NCBI GenBank assembly: GCA_911728435.2
Contig: OU452203.1
Coordinates: 11,243,651 to 11,307,650 of the forward strand
DNA length: 64,000 nucleotides
Reading direction: 5' to 3'
Source: Apoderus coryli
Taxonomy: Eukaryota > Arthropoda > Insecta > Coleoptera > Attelabidae
The position numbers and the translations under genes were made by a program. Position 1 is the stretch's first letter; each line of letters begins with the position of its first letter. This document shows, piece by piece, positions 5,655 to 59,490 of this stretch. The notes under the pieces were generated by a model, which searched no databases, had not been told where the DNA came from, and saw nothing but the letters and a program-made list of their open reading frames with translations.

Positions 5655-5712
5655 TAGATTTGCCCGAATCCCTGGCGGGAGCCTCTATTTATGAATTGCT
5701 TGTTGTCTTAAT
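5655..5712 (-). mobile_element. Retrozyme-family fragment without ribozyme core
   Basis: About 58 bases resemble the junction of the hammerhead units at 11.28-11.33 kb: GCCCGAATCCC, then GGGAGCCTCTATTTA, then GAATTGCTTGTT. The similarity starts and stops abruptly and does not include the catalytic core. It lies directly against a family A unit. Confidence 0.6.
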
Positions 5713-10962: not shown

Positions 10963-10974
10963 TACTATCTATTA
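10963..10974. repeat. 12-bp target-site duplication, left
   Basis: TACTATCTATTA here is repeated exactly at 12324-12335. The two copies bracket the whole hammerhead array and its inverted unit, which marks that block as one insertion. Confidence 0.85.
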
Positions 10975-11014
10975 AGAATTGCTTGTTACATAAAGCAACA
11001 AGACTTTAAGTTAT

Positions 11015-11118
11015 GTTGGAAATTTATTTCACACTACCATGCTTCCACCAGACGGCCGTTTCGTCGATCCACGACTCATCAGTGGTGATCGGCAGGCAGT
11101 GTGACCTAAATTTCCAAC
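11015..11118 (-). ncRNA. Hammerhead ribozyme, type I, array unit 1
   Basis: On the minus strand the core reads CTGATGA, then stem II GTCG-TGGAT-CGAC, then GAAA, then a short stem III within ACGGCCGT, then the cleavage triplet GTC (cleavage between the complements of 11051 and 11050). The inner part of stem I pairs ACCA with TGGT next to the core. After an internal loop, the outer part pairs TCACACT with AGTGTGA and GTTGGAAATTTA with TAAATTTCCAAC. All invariant core residues (C3, U4, G5, A6, G8, A9, G12, A13, A14, C17) are present. Stem III is very short, as in Penelope and retrozyme hammerheads, which often act as dimers. Predicted to self-cleave; activity is not shown here. Confidence 0.93.
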
Positions 11119-11350
11119 ATTTACAAAGAGCTTATACTAGCACGAGAATTGATTGAGAAAGAGATGTTTGTGGCGACACCTAGCGTGAACAGGCAATATG
11201 CCGGGTGAAATACAGTTCACTACGATGGCCGGACAAGAAGTAACAACTCCATTATATCCTATTGCCAACACTAGATGCGCCCGAATCCCCTAGCAGGGAG
11301 GCTTTATTTAAGAATTGCTTGTTACATAAAGCAACAAGACTTTAAGTTAT

Positions 11351-11454
11351 GTTGGAAATTTATTTCACACTACCATGCTTCCACCAGACGGCCGTTTCGT
11401 CGATCCACGACTCATCAGTGGTGATCGGCAGGCAGTGTGACCTAAATTTCCAAC
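11351..11454 (-). ncRNA. Hammerhead ribozyme, type I, array unit 2
   Basis: Identical in layout to unit 1, exactly 336 bp further on, with the same core, stem II loop and GTC cleavage site. Cleavage at units 1 and 2 would release a 336-nt RNA monomer. Confidence 0.93.
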
Positions 11455-11686
11455 ATTTACAAAGAGCTTATACTAGCACGAGAATTGATTGAGAAAGAGA
11501 TGTTTGTGGCGACACCTAGCGTGAACAGGCAATATGCCGGGTGAAATACAGTTCACTACGATGGCCGGACAAGAAGTAACAACTCCATTATATCCTATTG
11601 CCAACACTAGATGCGCCCGAATCCCCTAGCAGGGAGGCTTTATTTAAGAATTGCTTGTTACATAAAGCAACAAGACTTTAAGTTAT

Positions 11687-11790
11687 GTTAGAAATTTATT
11701 TCACACTACCATGCTTCCACCAGACGGCCGTTTCGTCGATCCACGACTCATCAGTGGTGATCGGCAGGCAGTGTGACCTAAATTTCCAAC
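11687..11790 (-). ncRNA. Hammerhead ribozyme, type I, array unit 3
   Basis: Same core as units 1 and 2. One base of the outer stem I differs (GTTAGAAATTT in the plus-strand reading at 11687 instead of GTTGGAAATTT), which weakens one outer pair but leaves the catalytic core intact. Confidence 0.92.
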
Positions 11791-12022
11791 ATTTACAAAG
11801 AGGTTATACTAGCACGAGAATTGATTGAGAAAGAGATGTTTGTGGCGACACCTAGCGTGAACAGGCAATATGCCGGGTGAAATACAGTTCACTACGATGG
11901 CCGGACAAGAAGTAACAACTCCATTATATCCTATTGCCAACACTAGATGCGCCCGAATCCCCTAGCAGGGAGGCTTTATTTAAGAATTGCTTGTTACATA
12001 AAGCAACAAGACTTTAAGTTAT

Positions 12023-12130
12023 GTTGGAAATTTATTTCACACTACCATGCTTCCAATTACCACTGATGAGTCGTGGATCGACGAAACGGCCGTCTGGTGG
12101 AAGCATGGTAGTGTGAAATAAATTTCCAAC
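12023..12130 (+). ncRNA. Hammerhead ribozyme at the inversion junction
   Basis: Here the array reverses direction. The plus strand carries CTGATGA at 12063-12069, the same stem II and loop, GAAA, and cleavage site GTC ending at 12094. Because the 5' side of stem I now comes from the oppositely oriented unit, its outer part (12023-12055) is perfectly complementary to 12098-12130 over 33 bp. Only the bulge AATT interrupts the helix near the core. The usual internal loop of stem I is therefore lost. That loop normally contacts loop II, so cleavage may be slower in this copy; this is inference. Confidence 0.85.
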
Positions 12131-12323
12131 ATAACTTAAAGTCTTGTTGCTTTATGTAACAAGCAATTCTTAAATAAAGCCTCCCTGCTAGGGGATTCGG
12201 GCGCATCTAGTGTTGGCAATAGGATATAATGGAGTTGTTACTTCTTGTCCGGCCATCGTAGTGAACTGTATTTCACCCGGCATATTGCCTGTTCACGCTA
12301 GGTGTCGCCACAAACATCTCTTT

Positions 12324-12335
12324 TACTATCTATTA
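12324..12335. repeat. 12-bp target-site duplication, right
   Basis: TACTATCTATTA, identical to 10963-10974. Confidence 0.85.
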
Positions 12336-12406
12336 GTTCCATGACATTTTTTACTTTACCGAAAATACGTACTAAAAATAAAAAAAAATAAATTGCATAC
12401 TACCTA

Positions 12407-12525
12407 CTACAAATCTATCAAAATTCTTGTCAAAACATCAAAATCCATTGTCAAAAAACTTTGTGTTACTCACACTTTTCACAATGGATTATGATGTTTT
12501 GACAAGAATTTTGATCGATTTGTAG
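12407..12525. repeat. Inverted repeat with 45-bp arms
   Basis: The left arm (12407-12451) and right arm (12481-12525) are reverse complements with two mismatches and contain TCTTGTCAAAACATCA and its complement. The loop is 29 bases. It could form a long hairpin RNA or be a tiny fold-back transposon. Its role is unknown. Confidence 0.8.
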
Positions 12526-12639
12526 GAGTATGTGATTTATTTAACAGAAAAAAAAAATTTCACGTGGTGGATTAATGAATTTCTCCTAATTAGTAACTAA
12601 ATGATTGTAACAATAATGATAAAATAGCTTTTCGTAATT

Positions 12640-12790
12640 TTGATTACCACCACTGATGATGCTGGGACTGCGAAACATGTTTAGTAAATGTAAAATTTTT
12701 TTAGAGAAACCTATTAAATTTATGACGTGGAGGTTGCCTTTTATTTCAAGAATATATTATTCTACTCCACTTCAATATGAACTACTACTT
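12640..12790 (+). other. Hammerhead-like motif with conserved downstream tail
   Basis: CTGATGAT at 12653, a weak GC/GC stem and GAAACATGT near 12672 resemble a hammerhead with one extra U before stem II. About 60 bases later comes AAATTTATGACGTGGAGGTT followed by CCTTTTATTTCAA. Related arrangements occur at 29.9-30.2 kb and 58.16-58.39 kb. Stem II is poor here, so this is probably a decayed or non-catalytic relative. Confidence 0.35.
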
Positions 12791-18651: not shown

Positions 18652-18896
18652 ACTTGTGACATTAATGAATTTCTTGTTGCATAATGTAACAAGACTGTAA
18701 GTCTTGTTGGAAATTTGTTTCACACTACCATGCTTTCACCAGACAGGCCGTTTTGTTGATCCACAACTCATCAGTGGTGATCGGCAGGCAGTGTGACCCA
18801 AATTTCCAGCATTTACGAAGAGTTTATACTAGCACCACCAGAGTTGAAAGACAACAAGATGTTTTCGCCAAAAACATCTTGTTGACTTGTGATATT
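18652..18896 (-). mobile_element. Retrozyme monomer 2 with 12-bp target duplication
   Basis: The unit at 18664-18884 (221 bp) lies between ACTTGTGACATT (18652-18663) and ACTTGTGATATT (18885-18896), a 12-bp duplication with one mismatch. It contains a minus-strand hammerhead and shares TTCTTGTTGC, TTGTTGGAAATTTG, GTGTGACC and TTATACTAGCACCA-type phrases with the 336-bp array units, but lacks about 115 bp of their body. One end carries a perfect 14-bp hairpin (18852-18884, loop CGCCA). Divergence and a dead core mark it as older than the array. Confidence 0.8.
18706..18810 (-). ncRNA. Decayed hammerhead ribozyme
   Basis: The minus strand reads CTGATGA, stem II GTTG-TGGAT-CAAC, then AAAA where the core needs GAAA, then a stem III with an extra base (GGCCTGTC). 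The change G12 to A removes the residue that acts as general base, so cleavage is not expected. All three stem II/core changes fit C-to-T or G-to-A at former CpG sites. Confidence 0.85.
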
Positions 18897-19384: not shown

Positions 19385-20882
19385 ATAATAATAATAATAA
19401 TCTCTTTATTGTCTAACAGGTAGTGCTACCCAATAACAAGACAAAATCTTACATTAACAAAAACAATTGCCTAGCATTAGCATACAAAAATACCCAACTT
19501 AGAACTAACTGAAAAATAGAAAAATACAAAACAGGAAATACACGCATCAAAACGAAAGAAAATTGGGAGGATTACAAGAACAATTAATAATAACAATAAA
19601 TAATTAACACATGAACATAATTCAGCAAAACAAATCCAAATCAGTAGCCCGCAAACATGTCTCTAAACTTTTCTTAAAAGAATCAAGCGATACATTAAAA
19701 AAATCAACGTTTTCATTAATAACTAATCGGTTGCTGTATTTACAAGCCCGAAATAGCGGTGCTTTAGATTCATAATTAGAACGAATCTGTGGCACCCAAA
19801 ATAAACTAGCGCTTCTAGAGTGAACCCTAGGGACACGAAACCATAGCTGCTGAAGCAACCGAGGACAATCCAACATATTGATGATCAACTTAAAAAGAAA
19901 GATCTGAGACGCGAAGATGCGTCTCTCGGCTAACGGCCGGAATTCGAATCTTGCCAGTAACAGGCCGTGCTCACACCCACGAGGAGGAAAATATCCATCA
20001 ATTTTCAATGACAAATATTTTAAAAACTTACGTTGGATACTCTCCAATCTCTGTATATGAACACGGTAGATGGGCGACCAAATGATTGTACCGAATTTCA
20101 AAATAGACACAACAAAGGCTAAATAGAGACTCTTCAGGCAGTCCATGTTGTTGAATTCTCTGGTCTGTCTAAAAATAAATCCCAACATTCGCAAAGCATT
20201 AGCAGAAACTTGCTCAATGTGGTAGTTGAAATATAAGTCACCATCCAAGTATACACCAAGATCTTTGATTACAGCGCAGCGTTCCAAATTTGAATTATCG
20301 ATGGTGTAGTTTCGCAAAAACGGATCTTGACGTCTTGTAAATGTCACCGACTTACATTTGTTCAGATTTAGAGGAAGTCTATTTAGATCACACCATTCTA
20401 AGAGCCGACACAGATCTGTTTGAAGCTGTGCGCAATCGTTCTCACAAACAACAGTACGATACAATTTTAAATCATCCGCAAACAACAAATAATTACTATT
20501 GAAATCAGAGCCAATATCGTTTACGAATATTGCAAAGAGAAGAGGAGCCAACGTACTGCCCTGCGGAGTTCCACTTGAGGCTGTGAATGAACTTGAACTG
20601 AATCCATTTTATTCAACAAATTGTTGCCTTGCTCCCAGATAGGACTGAAAAAAAGATATCAGATTCCTGCCGAAGTCAATGTCGCACATCTTCTGTTGAA
20701 TCAGGGAATGATCAATCTTATCCAACGCCTTGGAAAAGTCAGTATAAATTGCGTCGACTTGCAAGCCTCGACCGACAGCCGGAATTACATCCTGCAGGAA
20801 AGTGGTTAGATTGCTCACCGTAGAACGACCCTTAATGAACCCATGTTGCTGGTAAACTAGCCTATGTTTTATTTGCCCAAAT
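19385..20882 (-). pseudogene. 5'-truncated LINE with reverse transcriptase (LINE-1 of this window)
   Basis: Non-LTR retrotransposons copy their RNA at a nicked target with this reverse transcriptase. Reading leftwards from 20882, the domain opens with QQHGFIKGRSTVSNLTTF, then YTDFSKALDKIDH (motif A; the usual Phe is Leu). An in-frame stop (20606-20608) comes next, then SGTPQGSTLAPLLF (motif B) and FADDLKLY (motif C, residues 24-27 of the frame 19622-20551). The thumb and C-terminal region include RKFLKYLSLKIDGYFPPRG. The frame is otherwise open to its stop at 19622. The 3' end has AATAAA and an (ATT)n tail at 19387-19402 instead of poly-A. Endonuclease and the first third of the reverse transcriptase are missing. 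Same family as 31.2-33.16 and 61.95-62.59 kb. Confidence 0.9.
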
Positions 20883-21779
20883 AACGTTTAAAGATTTGCA
20901 ACTTTTCATTTGAACTTATTTCGATTGATATTCAACGTAGGCTCTTGATTTTTTTACCAAAATGTTTAGAAATAACTAATGATTACCTACATATTGTAAA
21001 ATCGTGTGAAATTTGGGCGTAACCCTAAAAATCCCTTCACATGCGGCGGTATACGTTGTTCATTTCGAAATTTTACTAGCCATAAAAGTCGTTCGTGAAG
21101 GTTTTTGGTAACAATTTTATTGTTTATTTGTTTGTTATAACAACAAACGGTCTTCATAAAATCGTAATTTTAATTTGTTTAATGCAATATTATAGGGTAT
21201 TCTTAAAATCCACAGAAAAAATACATTACAATATAGGTAGGTACAAAACAATTTATTTTCAAACAAACTCACATTATGAAAATAATAAAGTAAAGTACGA
21301 ACATAATCAAATTAGAAAAAATTATAAAACGGTTTAAAAATTTTCAAATTAAAAAAGTCTTTTGGGAATGAAATTAAGTTCTATGTTAATTTGGGAATCG
21401 TAAGTTGTTTAATAAAAAATATTATGATGACCTCGTTTTAGAGTATCCTTTAGCAAGGCCTGTTTTTATTAATTTTTAAAAATTCCAAACAAATTTAGAT
21501 TTTTTAGCGAGTTTTGATATTGTAGATTTCAAAAATATTACCTCAATTTCGAAAAAATGCACATACGGCTTTCTTCCGTAGCAGGGCAGTATTATATTTA
21601 TGATATGGAGAGGTAAAAATAATAAGTTCGCCTGGGGTAGGTACTTGCAATTCTTTAGGTCAGTAATTTTAGTTTCACTATAAACTAAAACAATATCTAT
21701 TTCAAACTCGTATTTAATTCCTATAATATTAACAACGTACTTATACAAAACTTGAAATATTCCTGCAACCAGTTCTGCA
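20883..21779. other. No gene recognised
   Basis: AT-rich. The minus-strand frame at 21476-21784 and the plus-strand frame at 21095-21337 show no family motif. Confidence 0.4.
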
Positions 21780-23043: not shown

Positions 23044-23273
23044 AAATATTGAATATGTAAAAGGATGTGTTTGGCGACATCTAGTTTTCTCTGTACCGTG
23101 TGGGGTATATACCACATTATTTACGAGAGTTTGGCTGTCAACTACTGACCGATCACCACTGATGAGTCGTGGATCGACGAAACGGCCGTCTGGTGAAAGT
23201 ATAGTGCTTGACAGACAAACTCTCGGATTTTAAGTCTTGTTTTGTTAAACAAGCCCATTTCAAATATTGAATA
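23044..23273 (+). mobile_element. Retrozyme monomer 3 inside the outer hAT, with exact 12-bp target duplication
   Basis: The 206-bp unit (23056-23261) is flanked by AAATATTGAATA at 23044-23055 and again at 23262-23273. Taking away the unit and one duplicate rejoins the hAT reading frame exactly (...EIL then NNLNNSIF). It starts TGTAAAAGGATGTGTTTGGC, carries one plus-strand hammerhead, and ends TTGTTAAACAAGCCCATTTC. It shares only the catalytic region and short phrases such as TGGCGACA-CTAG with the 336-bp array units, so it is a separate subfamily. Confidence 0.9.
23124..23225 (+). ncRNA. Hammerhead ribozyme, type I, in retrozyme monomer 3
   Basis: CTGATGA at 23159-23165, stem II GTCG-TGGAT-CGAC, GAAA, ACGGCCGT stem III, cleavage site GTC ending at 23190. 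The inner stem I pairs CACCA with TGGTG. The outer stem pairs 23124-23141 with 23208-23225 over 18 positions with a single mismatch. That outer stem sequence (CGAGAGTTTG...) is unrelated to the one in the array copies, yet pairs as well. All invariant core residues are present, so cleavage is predicted. Confidence 0.93.
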
Positions 23274-23686: not shown

Positions 23687-24180
23687 TTAAAAAAAAAACC
23701 TGAGATAAACTGATCCTGATCGGTTATAACATAAATTGAACATAAGTCTAATCAGAAACACGTCTTTGTTCTTATTTACATGTTCTCTGTGTACGCTGAG
23801 AAGACATAATCCAGATAGTCTTTCTTCACTCATGGTAGACCTTAACCAAGTTTTCACCCGTCTTAAGGTACTAAACGATCTTTCAATAATTGTGGCCGTT
23901 GTTGGAGATAAAGCTAAAAAATAGCAATTGCTTTTTTTGTTACTAGGGAAAAACTCACAATGTTTTTCCAATAAATCGGCGAACTCTAACTGAATATTTT
24001 CATTTTTATTTTTCTCTATCCACATTTCATCCCATGTTTCACTCTCAGTCTCTAAATTTTCTAAATCGTATACTTTGGAATTTTTTCTATTAATTTCCTA
24101 TACTCTTCTGTTACAGTTAACTCTGGATGAAACAGTCACAAAAAAAATGCAATTTCTGTTTCTTCCGAAAATCTTATCTC
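23687..24180 (-). pseudogene. Inner hAT transposase, C-terminal part
   Basis: The frame 23687-24025 contains LALSPTTATIIERSFSTLRR and VKTWLRSTMSEERLSGLCLL, the hAT C-terminal dimerisation domain with its ERSFS and LRSTM signatures. Just upstream, LETESETWDEMWIEKNK and, after a frameshift, PELTVTEEYRKLIEKIPK continue the protein up to the point where the LINE is inserted near 24200-24300. The first part of the protein is on the far side of the LINE at 27755-28330. Broken by frameshifts and the insertion. Confidence 0.85.
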
Positions 24181-24317
24181 AATTGAGCGGATAATTTAAT
24201 GTAGATATGGAATAAACAAAGAAACACGGTAATATTCCTCGCAAGACTTCGTTTCGTAATTAGCTCTATAAATCGCCTTTTTTATAAATACTATTAAAAT
24301 AACAGAATCTAAATGCA

Positions 24318-25810
24318 GTGAACAAAAAAATAATTTTATTTCAATCGTGCATCAAAATGTTCAATCACTCGGTAATTTCGGTGGAAAAGATCAGCTACAT
24401 GTTGCAATCATATCCACGATGTCAAATTTTATGTGTGACTGAGCATTGGAAGTCAGAATGTCAACTAAAATCTTTGGGTATTCCTGGTTTCAAGTTGGCC
24501 GCATTTTTCTGCAGAGAAGAGGGAAAACACGGTGGATCAGCGGTGTATGTTAAAAAATGTGTGAAGTTCAAGATTGTATCACAGTTAAAGAAAGTATCAG
24601 TAAGTGGCGTTTTTGAATGTGCGGGTATAGAATGTTTTTTCGGTGATGCTGAAATTATTGTAATTGTAGTATATAGACCACCCACAGGAAACTTACAAGA
24701 GTTTTTTATAAAAATAGAAGCATTATTAAATAATATTTTTAGGCCTAACAGAAAAATGTTTATAACCGGAGATTTTAATATTGAACTTCTTAGGGATAAT
24801 AAGCAAAAAAATAATTTATTATCTATGATGACCTCATTTCAATTATCCCCCGTAGTATTGACTAACACGCGTGTAACGTCAGCGACATCAAGTTGCATTG
24901 ATAATATTTTCACAAACGTTGAATGTAATCTTGTAGAAGTCCTAGAGAACCATGTATCTGACCATATGGCTCAAAAAGCTGATTTTGAAGTCAAACTTCC
25001 AATATGTTACAATAAAAACTATATTAGATATTATACACAAATGAATAAGGAAAAGTTTGCCGATGCTTTAAGAGTACAGGATTGGTCGGCTGTTGTTGAT
25101 GTTGCGCCGTGTGATGTTGATGAGCAATGGGAAATATTTTCTAATAAATTTTGTTTACTTTTCAATCAGCATTTTCCATTACAACTAGTAAAAACAAAAA
25201 AAAATAAAAAAGTAGACAATGAGCGCGTTAACGAACTTAAAGGTAATTTAGATAAACTATTCGTATTGTCAAAATTTAGCAATTATTCTTTGGAGTTATA
25301 TAGAACCACAAAAAAAGAATATGATATACAATTAAAAAATATAAGAACCCAGAATTATGGAAATAGAATTAAAAATGCGGATAATAAGTCAAAAGTTATG
25401 TGGTCAATATGTAAAGAAATAACAGCAAATGAAAAAATCGTAAATATGGCCGTGGATGGTGAAGCCGAGACAATAGCAAATCAGTATAATGACTATTTAT
25501 TATCTATAATTCCGCAACTGTTATCGGATATACAAGATTTGCCACATACTTGTTCTATAAAAACAAATAATATGTCTATGTATTTAAAACCAACAACTGT
25601 GAGCGAAATAGGCGATTTAGTTAATATCATAAAGATGAAACATAGTAGTGGAATAGATGAGATCCCGAGCAGCATTGTGAAGTTGGCTATTTCGAATATT
25701 AAATATATATTGTGTTATATAATTAATAATTCTTTAAAATATAGTATCGTACCAGCAAAATTAAAAATAGCTCTTATAAAACCATTATTTAAAACGGGGA
25801 TACAGGTAAC
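24318..25810 (+). pseudogene. LINE-2: apurinic-type endonuclease and start of reverse transcriptase
   Basis: The endonuclease nicks target DNA to prime reverse transcription. The frame 24318-25886 shows TEHW (residues 41-44, catalytic Glu), YRPP (119-122), GDFNIEL (151-157, catalytic Asp/Asn), SSCIDNIFTN (191-200) and SDH (214-216, catalytic His). The first motif, HQNVQSLGN, can be read at about 24350 in the next frame, so an early frameshift removes the true N terminus. A long linker with PTTVSEIGDL and HSSGIDEIPSSIVK (start of the reverse transcriptase) follows. A single-base frameshift near 25795 then moves the reading to the next frame, which continues at 25811. No ORF1 lies upstream. Jockey/CR1-type layout; clade not fixed. 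Confidence 0.9.
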
Positions 25811-27139
25811 TTGGAGAATTACCGTCCGATTAGTTTGCTTCCCAGTTTCTCTAAAATATTTGAATTGGTTATGGCTTCCCGTTTAATATGCTTTTTCAAT
25901 GACTGTAATTTGCTTCATCCGCAGCAACATGGTTACTTGAAGGGAAAATCCACGCACACTGCTATTTTTGAGTTTTTGAATAATATTTTGAGAAATTTGG
26001 AAAAATCCGACATTTCAATAGGTTTATTTATAGATTTGTCTAAAGCTTATGATAGCCTAGACAGATCTTTATTGCTTAAGAAACTAGACTTATACGGTGT
26101 GCGCGGAAACTCTTTAAAGTGGATAGAATCGTATCTGACTGACAGATATCAAATGGTGAAAGTAGCAAAGGATGGAAAAACAGCTTGTTCGGAGATGAAA
26201 ATAAATAATTTCGGTGTTGCACAAGGAAGCATTCTCGGACCAATTCTTTTTCTAATCTATTTTAATGACATACATTACATTAATCAAAGACAAAATATAG
26301 CATTGGTGAATTATGCTGATGACACAAATGCTCTCATAGGAGGTCAGAATATAGACCAACTGCTGTTTGACCTAAGAAGTTTTTATGTTAATCTCGCGCA
26401 ATGGTGTACGGCAAACAAATTAATAATTAATTCAGAAAAGACTAATGCCATATTATTCAGAACAAAACAAAATAAACTTGCAAAGCCAAATGAAGTGAAA
26501 CTTGATTCAGATACTGAAATAGCGCTTGGTTCACAAACGAAATTTTTGGGAGTTTTAATTAATGAATTTTTAGACTGGGCGAATCATATAAATTCTCTAA
26601 CAAATAAATTGAATTCTGTGTGTTATGCTTTAAGAGTTGTAGCTCGGTATCTGAATAAAGAAATATTAAAAATTTTATACCATGCAAACTTTGAGTCTCG
26701 TTTAAAATATGGCATTGTTTTTTGGGGTAGAGACAGTAATGTGCAAAATATTTTTGTGGTTCAAAAACGATGTATTAGAATAATAAATAATATGTCTTAT
26801 TTACAATCGTGTAGAGGGGTATTCCGGTCAGAAAAACTAATGACTGTAACTGCGTTATATATTTACGAATGTTTAGTATTCTTTAGTAATAATAGAGATA
26901 AATTTGATAACCCATCTGAAATTCACGAATATAACACAAGAACAGTTGACGTAACATATCCAATACATCGTTTAAACGTTTTTGCTAATAATGCACCTTA
27001 TATGTGCATAAAATTATACAATAATTTACCGCCTAGGATAAAAAACATTAAAGTGTCTAAAATATTTAAAAGAGAAATCAAAACATATTTACTACATTTA
27101 GAACCATATTGTTTATCTGAATATTTGAATACAATGTAA
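25811..27139 (+). pseudogene. LINE-2: reverse transcriptase
   Basis: This 442-residue frame continues LINE-2 after the frameshift. Motifs in order: ENYRPISLLPSFSKIFE (2-18), QQHGYLKGKST (38-48), FIDLSKAYDSLD (73-84, motif A), GVAQGSILGP (135-144, motif B with Ala where Pro is usual), NYADDTNALI (167-176, motif C), KFLGVLINEFLDW (thumb). The ending includes RLNVFANNAPYMCIKLYNNL. It is open throughout, so only the upstream frameshifts prevent a full endonuclease-reverse transcriptase. After the stop comes a short 3' UTR with AATAAA (27250) and an (ATT)n tail to about 27284. Inserted inside the inner hAT. Confidence 0.93.
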
Positions 27140-30958: not shown

Positions 30959-31169
30959 TATTGGTAAATAATAATTGTGAGAAAACCATTGTTCTAGAGC
31001 ATCCGGCTTAAGTAGGGCTACATGACTTTCATGCACCATTGCAAAATCTTGACCGCCGAAATTTTTGGATATAAGCGCTGATTCAGTGTAAGATTTACGA
31101 AGGTTACCTTTGATGTTTTAACAAAATATGGAAAGAAAACAACGTTTTTCGGAAAAAAAAAACTATTGT

Positions 31170-33165
31170 TTTTTATTATATAGCAACCGATCCTAAAAGT
31201 TTCTGGTCCTTCTATAACACTAAAAAAGGTCATTCTAGAATACCCGGGTTAATGGTTCACGATGGCATTAGCTATGATACTCCGGGTGGGATTGTTGATG
31301 CTTTCGCGGATTTTTTTAAGAGCGTGTATGTGGATTCTGATCTCCCTTCGGATGTGATTTCGGATGACTTTGGTATTTGCTCGGATCATATTACCCTGCC
31401 GCATATTGATGAGGATATGATTATAAAAGCTGCGAAGAGGCTTAAGCCAAAGTTAACTGCTGGAACTGATGGAATTCCGTCGTTTATTGTTAAGGATTGT
31501 ATCGGTGCCTTGGCTGCCCCTTTATTGCATATTTACAGAGGCGTGCTTGCCTCTTGCCGTTTCCCTGTTGTATGGAAGGATGCCAGAATTACACCAGTGC
31601 TGAAGAAAGGCGATAACAACTTGATATCGAATTACCGTCCCATATCGATACTCTGCAATTTCTCTAAGCTATTCGAGATAATTATCCATGAATATCTTTC
31701 TCAGCGGTTGGGAAGAAAATTGGATAGTGAGCAGCATGGGTTTATTTCCGGAAGATCATGTACGACGAATTTGTCTGTTTTATCGCACCAGACATGTGTG
31801 GCCATTGACAATCGAGCGCAGGTGGACGTTATCTATACTGATTTTCAAAAGGCTTTTGACCGGATAGACCACTATGTTCTCCTCTCGAAGCTCCGAATGT
31901 GCGGATTGTCGGTTCCATTTGTGAATCTGTTTCAGTCCTATCTTATGAGTAGATCGCAGTTTGTTGAGTATGAAGGTTCTAAATCTTACAGATTTACTCC
32001 CAGATCCGGGGTGCCCCAGGGATCTGACCTTGGACCGCTGCTCTTTTTAATATTTATGGATGACCTGCTCAAGGTCATTGGTGTCTCTAGGCTTGCATTT
32101 GCAGACGATCTTAAGTTATTCGCTGTGGTGGATTCTTTGAGTGATTGCGAAGCATTGCAGGAGAATTTGAATATCGTGAATGACTGGTGTGGAATTAATA
32201 AATTATCGTTGAATGTATCCAAGTGTTGCGTGTCAACGTTCCATAGAATTAAGAACCCAATTCTCTTTCAATATAAGATAAATAATGATATACTGAAGCG
32301 CGTGTCTGAGGTCACTGATTTGGGTGTTGTCTTCGATACCAAATTCACATTTGCACCACATTATTTCGCTATGATTCGGTCGGCCTCTAGAGCGCTTGGT
32401 TTTGTGTTGCGGAATGGTGGAGACTTTGGTGTATCCACTTTGAAACTCCTCTATTATGCATTTGTTCGCAGCAGATTGGAGTTTGCTTCATTGATTTGGA
32501 ATCCTGTGTACGCTTGCTATGTTGGAGATTTGGAGACTGTGCAGAGGCGATTTCTGAAGTACTTGGCTTATAGAGAGGACGGCATTTATCCTGCAAGGGG
32601 TTCAAGTCATCAAGACTTATTGAAGAGATATGGTATGCGTTCGCTTAGTCTACGCAGAGATATAAACTCCGTTAAGTTTTTATATAATTTAATTCACAAC
32701 ACAACAGACTGTGAATATTTGCTGTCTATGTTGCATTTTCATATTCCGCGTCCCGGAGTCAGGAGTAGTCCTACTTTCAGATTGAGCACGCCCAACTCTA
32801 ATGTTCTCATTCAAAGTCCAGTTTTTTATATGTGTAATTGTTATAATTCAATCTCTAGTAATTCTGAGGCTGATCTGTTCAGTGATTCCATTGGACAAAT
32901 AATCCAAATGTTGAATGCTTAGTTTTTATTTTTCTCTGTGATTTGTGAATATTGATTTCCTCTTTCTTCTCTTTTAAGAGAATCCTTAATTTTTCTTAAA
33001 TTTAATTTGTTTGTTTTTTTTTATTTGTTTTCTTTTTTTAATTTAATTTAATTAAAGTATATTATTACTTAGTTTTAGGTATATGTATTATTTTGAATAT
33101 ATTTATGATTTTTGTATCCTGTTAGTGGGCCAATGGCCTGTTGGATGAATAAATATTATTATTAT
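31170..33165 (+). CDS. 5'-truncated LINE with uninterrupted reverse transcriptase (LINE-3)
   Basis: The 556-codon frame from 31252 to 32922 is open, and family-like text extends upstream in frame to about 31180 (ATDPKSFWSFYNTKKGHSRI), so the ATG at 31252 is internal. Motifs (residues from 31252): GTDGIPSFIVKDC (71-83), NYRPISILCNFSKLFE (127-142), EQHGFISGRS (160-169), YTDFQKAFDRID (195-206, motif A), SGVPQGSDLGPLLF (252-265, motif B), FADDLKLF (283-290, motif C), then a thumb and a C-terminal region with RRFLKYLAYREDGIYPARG. The endonuclease is missing, so the copy is dead on arrival, a common result of incomplete reverse transcription. The open frame and higher GC suggest a recent insertion. 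The 3' end has AATAAA and (ATT)n at 33149-33170. Confidence 0.92.
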
Positions 33166-36633: not shown

Positions 36634-36777
36634 AAGAAGAGGACTTTGTATTTCGTGCAGAGTTTTTTATTTTATGGTCAGAGTGCTTTCGGGCCATGGC
36701 CTCACCTGACGAGTCAGATGGATCGAAAGCCCTCTGACTATTAATAAAAAAAAAACTTTGCACGATATACAAAGTTC
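36634..36777. repeat. Imperfect inverted repeat with CTGACGAG/CGAAAG loop motif
   Basis: Arms with GGACTTTGTAT...TCGTGCA...GTCAGAG and their complements enclose CCTGACGAGTCAGATGGATC and CGAAAGCCC. The stem would be about 55 bp with mismatches. The boxes recall a hammerhead but do not give a proper stem I or III. Confidence 0.6.
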
Positions 36778-50179: not shown

Positions 50180-50665
50180 TTAGGTAAGAATTTTTGTATT
50201 TGCAAAGTAAAATGTATGGTTCATAGATGTTTGATGATTTGTTAAAGCAGTTTTATTTTTTTTATCATATTTGTGGCCCTTAATATGATTTTCTAAATAT
50301 TGGGATGTTTGTCCAATATATATCGAAGGGCAATCTATACAAGAAATTTCGTAAACTATGTTACTCCTTTTATTTTTAAACGTTTTGGACTTCAGGTTGC
50401 TAAAAAAAAATTTGTGTAAATTATATCCTTTATGGCATACTGTAATTTGATATTTTTTCATGAACAGTTTTGAAAATTCATTTGACAATCCATTTATGTA
50501 TGGTAAAGAGAGAAACCGATTTATTTTAGTATTTTTTTAATTATTGTTTGTTATATTATTATACAGTTTGTTTATCCTGTTTTTGAAAATTTTATTTATT
50601 ATTTGTGCTGGGTAATTGTTTCTTATTAGAGCCCTTTATGCCAAAAAATTTTTTTAAAAAAAAAT
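50180..50665 (-). pseudogene. Penelope-like element: linker and GIY-YIG endonuclease fragment
   Basis: Penelope-like retroelements end in a GIY-YIG nuclease that nicks the target. The frame 50180-50488 has a linker (YQITVCHKGYNLHKFF) and then IVYEISCIDCPSIYIGQTSQ, the GIY-YIG core with its Cys pair, followed by YLENHIKGHK and TALTNHQTSMNHTF. The Arg expected in the NRIxxHK-type segment is His (ENHIKGHK), so the nuclease is probably dead. Upstream text NNYPAQIINKIFKNRINKLY and INRFLSLPYINGLS continues the protein to about 50665 with stops. The reverse transcriptase domain is not present. Relevant because hammerheads are known in Penelope-like elements and retrozymes. Confidence 0.85.
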
Positions 50666-59023: not shown

Positions 59024-59392
59024 GTATAAGTTCCACTTTATAGGTTTAGGTACTTAAATTTTACTTCTTTTTAATGTTTCTTCGGGTAAATAATAAGTTC
59101 GGTAGGAATAGGGCTTTGGGTATCAAACAAAAAAGATAGAAAATAGAAATTTGACATAGGGGTAGTTCTAAGCATTTACAAGTTTGTGACGTGTAGCGAT
59201 TTTCGATGCCGCCCCCGGAGGTATACATGAGGGCGGCGCAATGCCGTTTTAAATATCTCGTTTCGCTTTCTTGGAAAATAAAAAATTATAACTGATAACT
59301 GACACTTAGTACTTAACCCATTAATCCCCAACGTTGCGTAAACGAAACATTTTTTAAATTTTTTTTTCCAATGTGCCAGTAAAAAAAATACT

Positions 59393-59490
59393 TGTGTTGG
59401 CAATAGGATATAATCAGTTGTTACTTCTCGTCCGGCCATCGTCTATCAACTTTCTCTCACCGGGCATATTGCCTGCTCACACTAGATGTC
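59393..59490 (+). mobile_element. Retrozyme-body fragment without ribozyme core
   Basis: TGTTGGCAATAGGATATAAT, TGTTACTTCT, GTCCGGCCATCGT, CACCGGGCATATTGCC and ACTAGATGTC follow the 336-bp unit (reverse orientation of the array) for about 100 bp with roughly 80% identity. The catalytic region is not included. Confidence 0.8.

Follow-up and report, generated by a model that had tools for sequence, protein, structure and literature searches.

In the genome of the beetle Apoderus coryli, insertions of a 336-bp retrozyme family typically consist of two cDNAs that begin at two fixed sites of the unit, one site at each end of the insert, and that meet head to head between target site duplications of 12-16 bp. 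We consider it likely, at a probability of about 0.82, that a staggered break offers both of its strands as primers, from which an enzyme of the Penelope type reverse-transcribes one ribozyme-made RNA circle in rolling-circle fashion. Such apparent two-sided copying off one RNA circle suggests that elements of this kind are moved by the machinery of Penelope-like retrotransposons.

The array, its ribozymes and its neighbors

The array occupies positions 10963-12335 of the window, by which we mean the whole 64,000-nt stretch of DNA analyzed. It is a single insertion of 3.2 head-to-tail units of 336 bp followed by an inverted piece of 264-268 nt. Successive units begin at 10975, 11311 and 11647, at intervals of exactly 336 bp, and a fourth, partial copy ends at 12055. 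Units 1 and 2 are identical, and neither the 73-nt fourth copy nor the 264 nt of the inverted piece at 12060-12323 differs from the unit. Unit 3 departs from unit 1 by two substitutions in 336 sites, the only differences across 1,345 bases of the array, 12056-12059 being excluded. The GC content of the unit is 43.8%, and no listed ORF of 90 or more codons lies inside the array.

Read from the chromosome inward, both outer ends of the array present the strand complementary to the ribozyme, as expected when both target strands prime cDNA on the ribozyme RNA. The first cDNA (10975-12055, the plus strand being the cDNA strand) starts at a site named P1, at sense position 76-79 after the ribozyme cut, runs for 1081 nt or 3.2 laps, and stops at sense position 4. 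The second cDNA (12060-12323, the minus strand being the cDNA strand) starts at a site named P2, at sense position 229, and is identical to the unit over its 264 nt. The letters ATTA at the head-to-head junction (12056-12059), where the unit has ATCA, may be filler; alternatively, the second cDNA extends through them with one change. The inverted piece is accordingly 264 or 268 nt long. The original prediction described a terminal inverted unit; the piece is indeed inverted and inside the block, but it is a partial unit and not a whole one. This inverted piece is the key to the mechanism. Matches to miRNA families over the inverted junction were taken as hairpin artefacts of the inverted repeat.

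The block had been described as bracketed by a 12-bp duplication, and the word TACTATCTATTA is found exactly on both sides, as the left (10963-10974, plus strand) and right (12324-12335, plus strand) target site duplications, and nowhere else in the window, with one mismatch allowed. The last three bases of the left copy (TTA) also match the unit, so that 9-12 bp of the duplication are independent of the element. As a chance control, random position pairs in the window, with 6 nt of slack on each side, gave a 12/12 match in 11 of 20,000 cases and an 11/12 match in 49 of 20,000. A search of the 64-kb window with the joined flanks found no empty site for this array.

Four complete type I hammerhead cores are present in the array, three on the minus strand in units 1 to 3 (11045-11088, 11381-11424 and 11717-11760, each 32.3 bits to Rfam RF00163) and one on the plus strand in the inverted piece (12057-12100, 30.3 bits). 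The full cores and the exact 336-bp repeat reported earlier are therefore retained, with the count raised from three to four. Scores of 30.3-32.3 bits fall just below the gathering score of Rfam Hammerhead_1 (34); the scan of the window at this threshold reported no hammerhead, and the near-threshold matches come from the E-value mode. The core letters and helices align in full to RF00163 (alignment for unit 1), with a short helix III (ACGGCCGU); a long stem extends helix I. In neither of the two families described below does the hammerhead correspond to the computed free-energy minimum, and the enforced ribozyme fold is 8.7 kcal/mol weaker. Folding with just the core kept open did not give the hammerhead either. 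Self-cleavage of the retrozyme RNA is plausible, judging from the sequence. Nothing was found with the ribozyme core in viral and prokaryote sequence collections. Between P1 and P2 lies a branched hairpin that is stable in both families (z -2.6 and -4.1, against mononucleotide shuffles).

Two more complete copies with the same two-sided cDNA layout are located in the window. An older copy of the same family (family A; 18652-18896, plus strand) is enclosed by duplications ACTTGTGACATT and ACTTGTGATATT that match at 11 of 12 positions; its P1 cDNA extends from 18664 to about 18866 and is followed by a short inverted P2 stub (read by eye), and its hammerhead core is mutated and has no Rfam match at E 1. 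The other copy (locus L048; 23044-23273, plus strand) belongs to a second family, B, and has 12-bp duplications AAATATTGAATA matching at 12 of 12 positions; an inverted P2 piece from 23056 to about 23088 is followed by the sense strand up to P1, and its type I hammerhead lies at 23153-23196 on the plus strand (RF00163, 33.8 bits).

Several other features of the window were recorded. Old fragments of the retrozyme unit, about 85% identical and without clear ends, occur at 59391-59490 and 5655-5704. About 310 bp to the right of the array, a hammerhead-like core (CACCACTGATGA...GAAAC; 12648-12680, plus strand) shares 12 identical letters with the unit and is possibly a decayed retrozyme, or a chance match. 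The hammerhead-like match at 36706 was treated as chance, its GAAA being paired within a long hairpin; the 180-nt segment 36611-36790 folds into a very stable hairpin of -74 kcal/mol, which includes a CTGACGA...GAAA string, and is probably a foldback element rather than a ribozyme. An inverted repeat at 12404-12528, with 53-bp arms that are 92% complementary and 19 nt apart, is of foldback or MITE type in appearance. LINE-type reverse transcriptase genes lie at 24303-27139 (two overlapping frames and an endonuclease domain), 31114-32922 and 19622-20887. The nearest named relatives of two reverse transcriptases are from beetles and other arthropods, and the best named matches of the 25793-27139 frame are from beetles. 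The C-terminal dimerisation region of a hAT transposase was detected at 23687-24097 (minus strand, E 4.6e-5).

Start sites and duplications across the genome

Using the 336-bp unit, we searched the genome (428 Mb, 129 contigs). Of 1,421 first-look candidates 40 were scored, and these gave at least 209 matches, spread over many contigs; the scored candidates are the most similar ones, thus the sample leans to young copies. The family-A set comprises 40 loci, namely the window array and 39 loci with flanks among the matches listed. A dynamic-programming fit to a 336-nt circle, numbered from the ribozyme cut, divided each locus into stretches of sense strand and of cDNA strand.

Both orientations are present in 31 of the 40 loci. 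In all 31 the cDNA strand is on the left and the sense strand on the right, with 3' ends pointing outward at both ends of the insert. P1 is found at one end and P2 at the other in 28 of these 31 loci, where the start sites fall at positions 76-84 (P1) and 227-235 (P2) after the cut; P1 is on the left in 13 of them and P2 in 15, and none of the 31 loci has P2 at both ends. If the start sites were chosen independently, 28 opposite pairs would arise with a chance of about 4e-9 (2 to the -28). All 28 loci carry a duplication of 12-16 bp (12 bp in 15 loci, 13 in nine, 14 in three and 16 in one), among which that of L042 has a mismatch and some of the longer ones share letters with the unit.

These duplications agree with the earlier expectation that other copies in the genome would carry flanking repeats of about 12 bp, and they exclude the converse picture of copies found only as satellites without duplications. 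Left and right flanks swapped among the 28 loci yield 12 bp or more in 23 of 756 pairs. In-place growth of a satellite, whether by unequal exchange or by rolling-circle amplification of DNA, would account for the identical head-to-tail units. We regard it as scarcely credible in view of the duplications that flank 28 of 31 two-orientation loci, the paralogous empty sites of two sister insertions, and the variants private to a locus that recur on both of its arms (both described below). The proposal that the array was inserted as one block, from an oligomeric or circular RNA, is thus supported by the genome-wide loci.

The three remaining two-orientation loci are exceptions of two kinds. The left ends of L019 and L020 are at positions 110 and 96, and both loci are without a duplication. 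L033 has P1 at both ends and is located inside a 97%-identical palindrome that takes in its flanks. The palindrome extends for about 1.1 kb or more per side and is either a real inverted duplication or an assembly artefact.

P1 or P2 is also the start in the nine single-orientation loci; six of them have a duplication of 8-14 bp, and none was found in L012, L024 and L036. Extra material at two loci was counted as separate insertions: a 96%-identical sense-strand copy 220 bp to the left of L032, and older adjoining pieces at L014. The retrozyme L018 lies within an apparent tandem array with a repeat of about 110 bp (seen as self-matches).

The cDNAs in the 28 loci with a P1/P2 pair range from 35 to 2,667 nt, the longest pair being that of L017 (2,667 and 2,124 nt). 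Six of the 56 cDNA stops are at P1, where 2.2 are expected (p 0.02, post hoc). The stops bear directly on whether the second arm could be made by self-priming (snap-back) of the first cDNA, as part of PMC3846280 proposes for rotifer Penelope elements. Head-to-head arms are what such cDNA synthesis should produce, and it should also leave arms that stop at equal positions; the two stops lie within 15 nt of each other in 2 of 28 loci, with 2.6 expected. Moreover, all 28 loci have the other start site at the end of the second arm, and the inverted piece of the window array has a ribozyme segment that is missing from the adjoining arm. One or two loci, such as L010 with its stops at 333 and 335, may have arisen by snap-back, which is refuted for most loci; as a general account we consider it very improbable.

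Two sequence preferences were considered and rejected. A 13-nt motif common to P1 and P2 (10 of 13 letters, equaled by 184 of 49,560 position pairs of the unit) was given no weight: it was picked post hoc and is absent from the ends of Penelope-like elements (PLEs). A preference for primers with a 3'-terminal ATT, as in a lizard PLE, looked good in the first three copies; the 28 loci show merely a T/A-rich trend.

Family B was defined from the 333-nt unit of L064 and is represented by 28 loci (30 cut out minus 2 duplicates), with further loci in the table. The two families are 58% identical over 328 aligned columns and nearly identical over the ribozyme, and their start sites are at nearly the same distances from the cut. 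Duplications of at least 12 bp enclose 16 of the 28 family-B loci, of which 14 show clear P1/P2 pairs (five ends read by eye); in the other two, the second end is decayed (L051) or P1 only is seen (L068). Two further loci have duplications of 8-10 bp, and by this method no duplication was found in 10 of the 28, where some may extend beyond the fitted stretch.

Eight empty-site candidates for sister insertions were aligned. According to the original prediction an empty site should collapse to one copy of the duplicated word, and this holds for two sister insertions, L030 and L041, in paralogues: repeat copies without the insert hold the word once, with at most one substitution. The L030 empty site differs from two window copies by one or two substitutions in or beside the word and has no gap nearby. 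The L041 site, compared with three stretches in two loci, has 0 or 1 substitution in the word, and its alignment contains a 20-nt length difference about 11 nt to the left of the word. In contrast, the paralogous copies of L013 lack the word altogether, and this case is ambiguous, a simple empty site not being seen.

Variants shared by the two cDNAs

Sequence variants that distinguish loci are shared by the two cDNAs of a locus. At site 58 both cDNAs agree in 24 of 24 loci (permuted mean 14.1; reached by 0 of 20,000 permutations) and at site 280 in 20 of 20. Agreement is found in 25 of 26 loci at site 176, L025 having one odd unit, and in 22 of 23 at site 42, L016 being mixed. Variants restricted to a single locus, at sites 55, 94, 107, 228 and 243, occur in every unit of both cDNAs (for example, 55G>A in 7/7 units, 94C>T in 6/6 and 107G>A in 3/3). 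The 40 loci contain 41 partial variants, some of them junction artefacts; nearly all are confined to one odd unit, as a later mutation would give. The clearest exception is 42T>C, present in 2 of 4 units of L016. As the variants are uniform within a locus on both cDNAs, a single small circular RNA, copied many times by two polymerases, best explains both cDNAs on this evidence.

The template might instead be a linear multimeric RNA, produced by read-through transcription of an array already present, with the rest of the mechanism unchanged. Source arrays are nearly uniform and their transcripts would likewise give uniform units; in addition, 7 of the 56 cDNA stops fall no more than 10 nt from the ribozyme cut (3.5 expected), and the first cDNA of the window array stops 3 nt short of it. 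This clustering at the cut is weak (p 0.09), and the stops are spread round the circle, on cDNAs as long as 2,667 nt. A linear multimer should also pass on variants of single units as partial patterns, whereas the partial variants observed are nearly all single odd units and the locus-private variants are in all units on both sides. We therefore regard a linear template as unlikely, though a serious alternative, and retain the circle as the probable template.

Penelope-like elements and the insertion reaction

By its sequence characters the family belongs to the metazoan non-LTR retrozymes, a previously known type of element. It has a complete type I core (32.3-33.8 bits) in a tandem unit of 150-450 bp with a GC content below 50%, without an ORF or LTR, and its copies are scattered through the genome and flanked by target site duplications of more than 4 bp. 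The retrozymes described by Cervera and de la Pena (2020; PMC7229834) similarly combine a type I hammerhead and short helix III with tandem organization and the lack of LTRs and of a long ORF, and the present family matches them in unit length (336 nt, within 170-400 nt), GC content (44%), duplications of more than 4 bp and the presence in the same genome of PLEs with hammerhead-like motifs. It differs from that account in its head-to-head insertions and in two fixed RNA start sites used one each; the words "inverted" and "head-to-head" are absent from the main text of PMC7229834. Circular RNA has been shown for those retrozymes; for the family described here it is predicted.

Plant LTR retrozymes, as presented in parts of PMC7229834 and PMC7761336, are likewise hammerhead-bearing non-autonomous retroelements with circular RNA. 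In contrast to the beetle family, they have a type III hammerhead, LTRs, a tRNA primer site and 4-bp duplications, and are thought to be moved by Gypsy-family elements. Among the papers listed by searches of a mainly open-access journal literature, none reports a two-start retrozyme insertion, as judged by title and opening of the abstract.

For metazoan retrozymes, PMC7229834 suggests that the circular RNA is copied, perhaps in a target-primed manner, into tandem cDNA, and regards PLEs as a strong candidate for the partner; in the parts of that paper that deal with it, the partnership rests only on common type I hammerheads, tandem form and co-occurrence. PMC7761336, in its corresponding part, describes metazoan retrozymes as without a conserved motif from which the partner could be deduced, and favors Penelope-like elements.

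We searched the genome for GIY-YIG domains and considered the best 150 of 1,260 candidates. By eye, these 150 include at least 18 pairs within 5 kb, all with the minus-strand member on the left and the plus-strand member on the right. In four GIY-YIG (Penelope-like) insertions, the ends of which were read, the 3' ends face outward; each insertion has a long end and a short one, lying 28-34 nt apart, and the duplications measure 14, 12, 12 and 14 bp. One ORF of 774 codons combines reverse transcriptase (RVT_1) and GIY-YIG domains. Thus, the genome holds elements of autonomous type with the same insertion signature as the retrozymes. Hammerhead-like strings precede the 3' ends of these insertions and occur, in total, in 12 of 22 PLE pieces, a raw count of regular-expression matches, and Rfam at E 0.05 reported no hammerhead in the two PLE pieces given. 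Several Penelope-like families coexist in the genome (L078-L105), and four pieces of one short GIY-YIG frame class (L089, L090, L099 and L103) have no such string. The window itself contains a Penelope-like relic, the GIY-YIG end of an ORF (50183-50536, minus strand; PF01541, E 9.9e-5).

Rotifer Penelope elements have inverted pLTRs, one of them with a 31-bp tail, and 8-10-bp duplications, and self-priming was proposed for them (PMC3846280, in part). Purified lizard PLE protein carries out extension on both strands of DNA, and its synthesis begins at two neighboring sites within the RNA (PMC11167929). PLEs with pLTRs and tails, as described in parts of these two papers, resemble the retrozyme in outward 3' ends, inverted arrangement, short duplications, two internal start sites, cutting and extension of both strands, a hammerhead, a 30-40-bp tail at one end and AT-rich targets. 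The purified enzyme shows the same start site use on both strands (PMC11167929, in part), in contrast to the one-each rule of the retrozymes. The retrozyme further differs from PLEs in having no long ORF, in its many-lap cDNAs and in a distance of about 153 nt between P1 and P2, with a hairpin between them. Its start sites have no common sequence with the PLE pieces looked at: the P1/P2 region matched none of the 22 PLE 3' pieces, which represent part of the PLE families.

A LINE, such as the LINE-type elements of the window, could also be thought to have moved the array, the inversion being ordinary twin priming. Twin priming is known for L1, and LINE-type reverse transcriptase genes are present in the window; LINEs are also named beside PLEs as possible partners in a part of PMC7229834. 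Against this, the array ends without poly(A) or a 3' repeat tail, inversion is found in 31 of 40 loci, 28 of which have fixed internal RNA start sites used one each, and the four GIY-YIG insertions read have this pattern, in a comparison that covers GIY-YIG ends alone. We consider movement by a LINE improbable and favor the Penelope-type enzyme.

The reaction that we infer from these data would proceed as follows. The 336-nt RNA of the non-autonomous retrozyme would be cut to unit length by its own hammerhead and then closed into a circle. The target would be cut in a staggered fashion by an enzyme of the Penelope-like class, with reverse transcriptase and GIY-YIG endonuclease, so that the two exposed 3' ends overlap by 12 nt. 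Both ends would serve as primers on a single shared circle, where synthesis starts at P1 from one of them and at P2 from the other, and each polymerase would cover anything between part of a lap and about eight laps. Both cDNAs are antisense to the ribozyme; their final head-to-head joining would place direct units on one side and inverted units on the other, with the 12-bp duplication outside them.

The anatomy of the insertions provides direct evidence on the partner of the retrozymes and makes sharp predictions: two start sites, one per DNA strand, and a 12-nt stagger. Repeated in tens of loci, it turns the published guess on how RNA circles enter animal chromosomes into a specific, testable mechanism. 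It can be further proposed, with less confidence but still on the favorable side, that animal retrozymes and Penelope-like elements in general insert by an obligate two-start reaction, in which a dimeric enzyme makes a 12-nt staggered cut and extends each strand on a different start site of a single RNA; for the retrozymes, this would be one small circle copied by two polymerases for many laps. If true, the obligate two-start reaction would settle which machinery moves animal retrozymes, and would replace self-priming as the cause of inverted Penelope elements.
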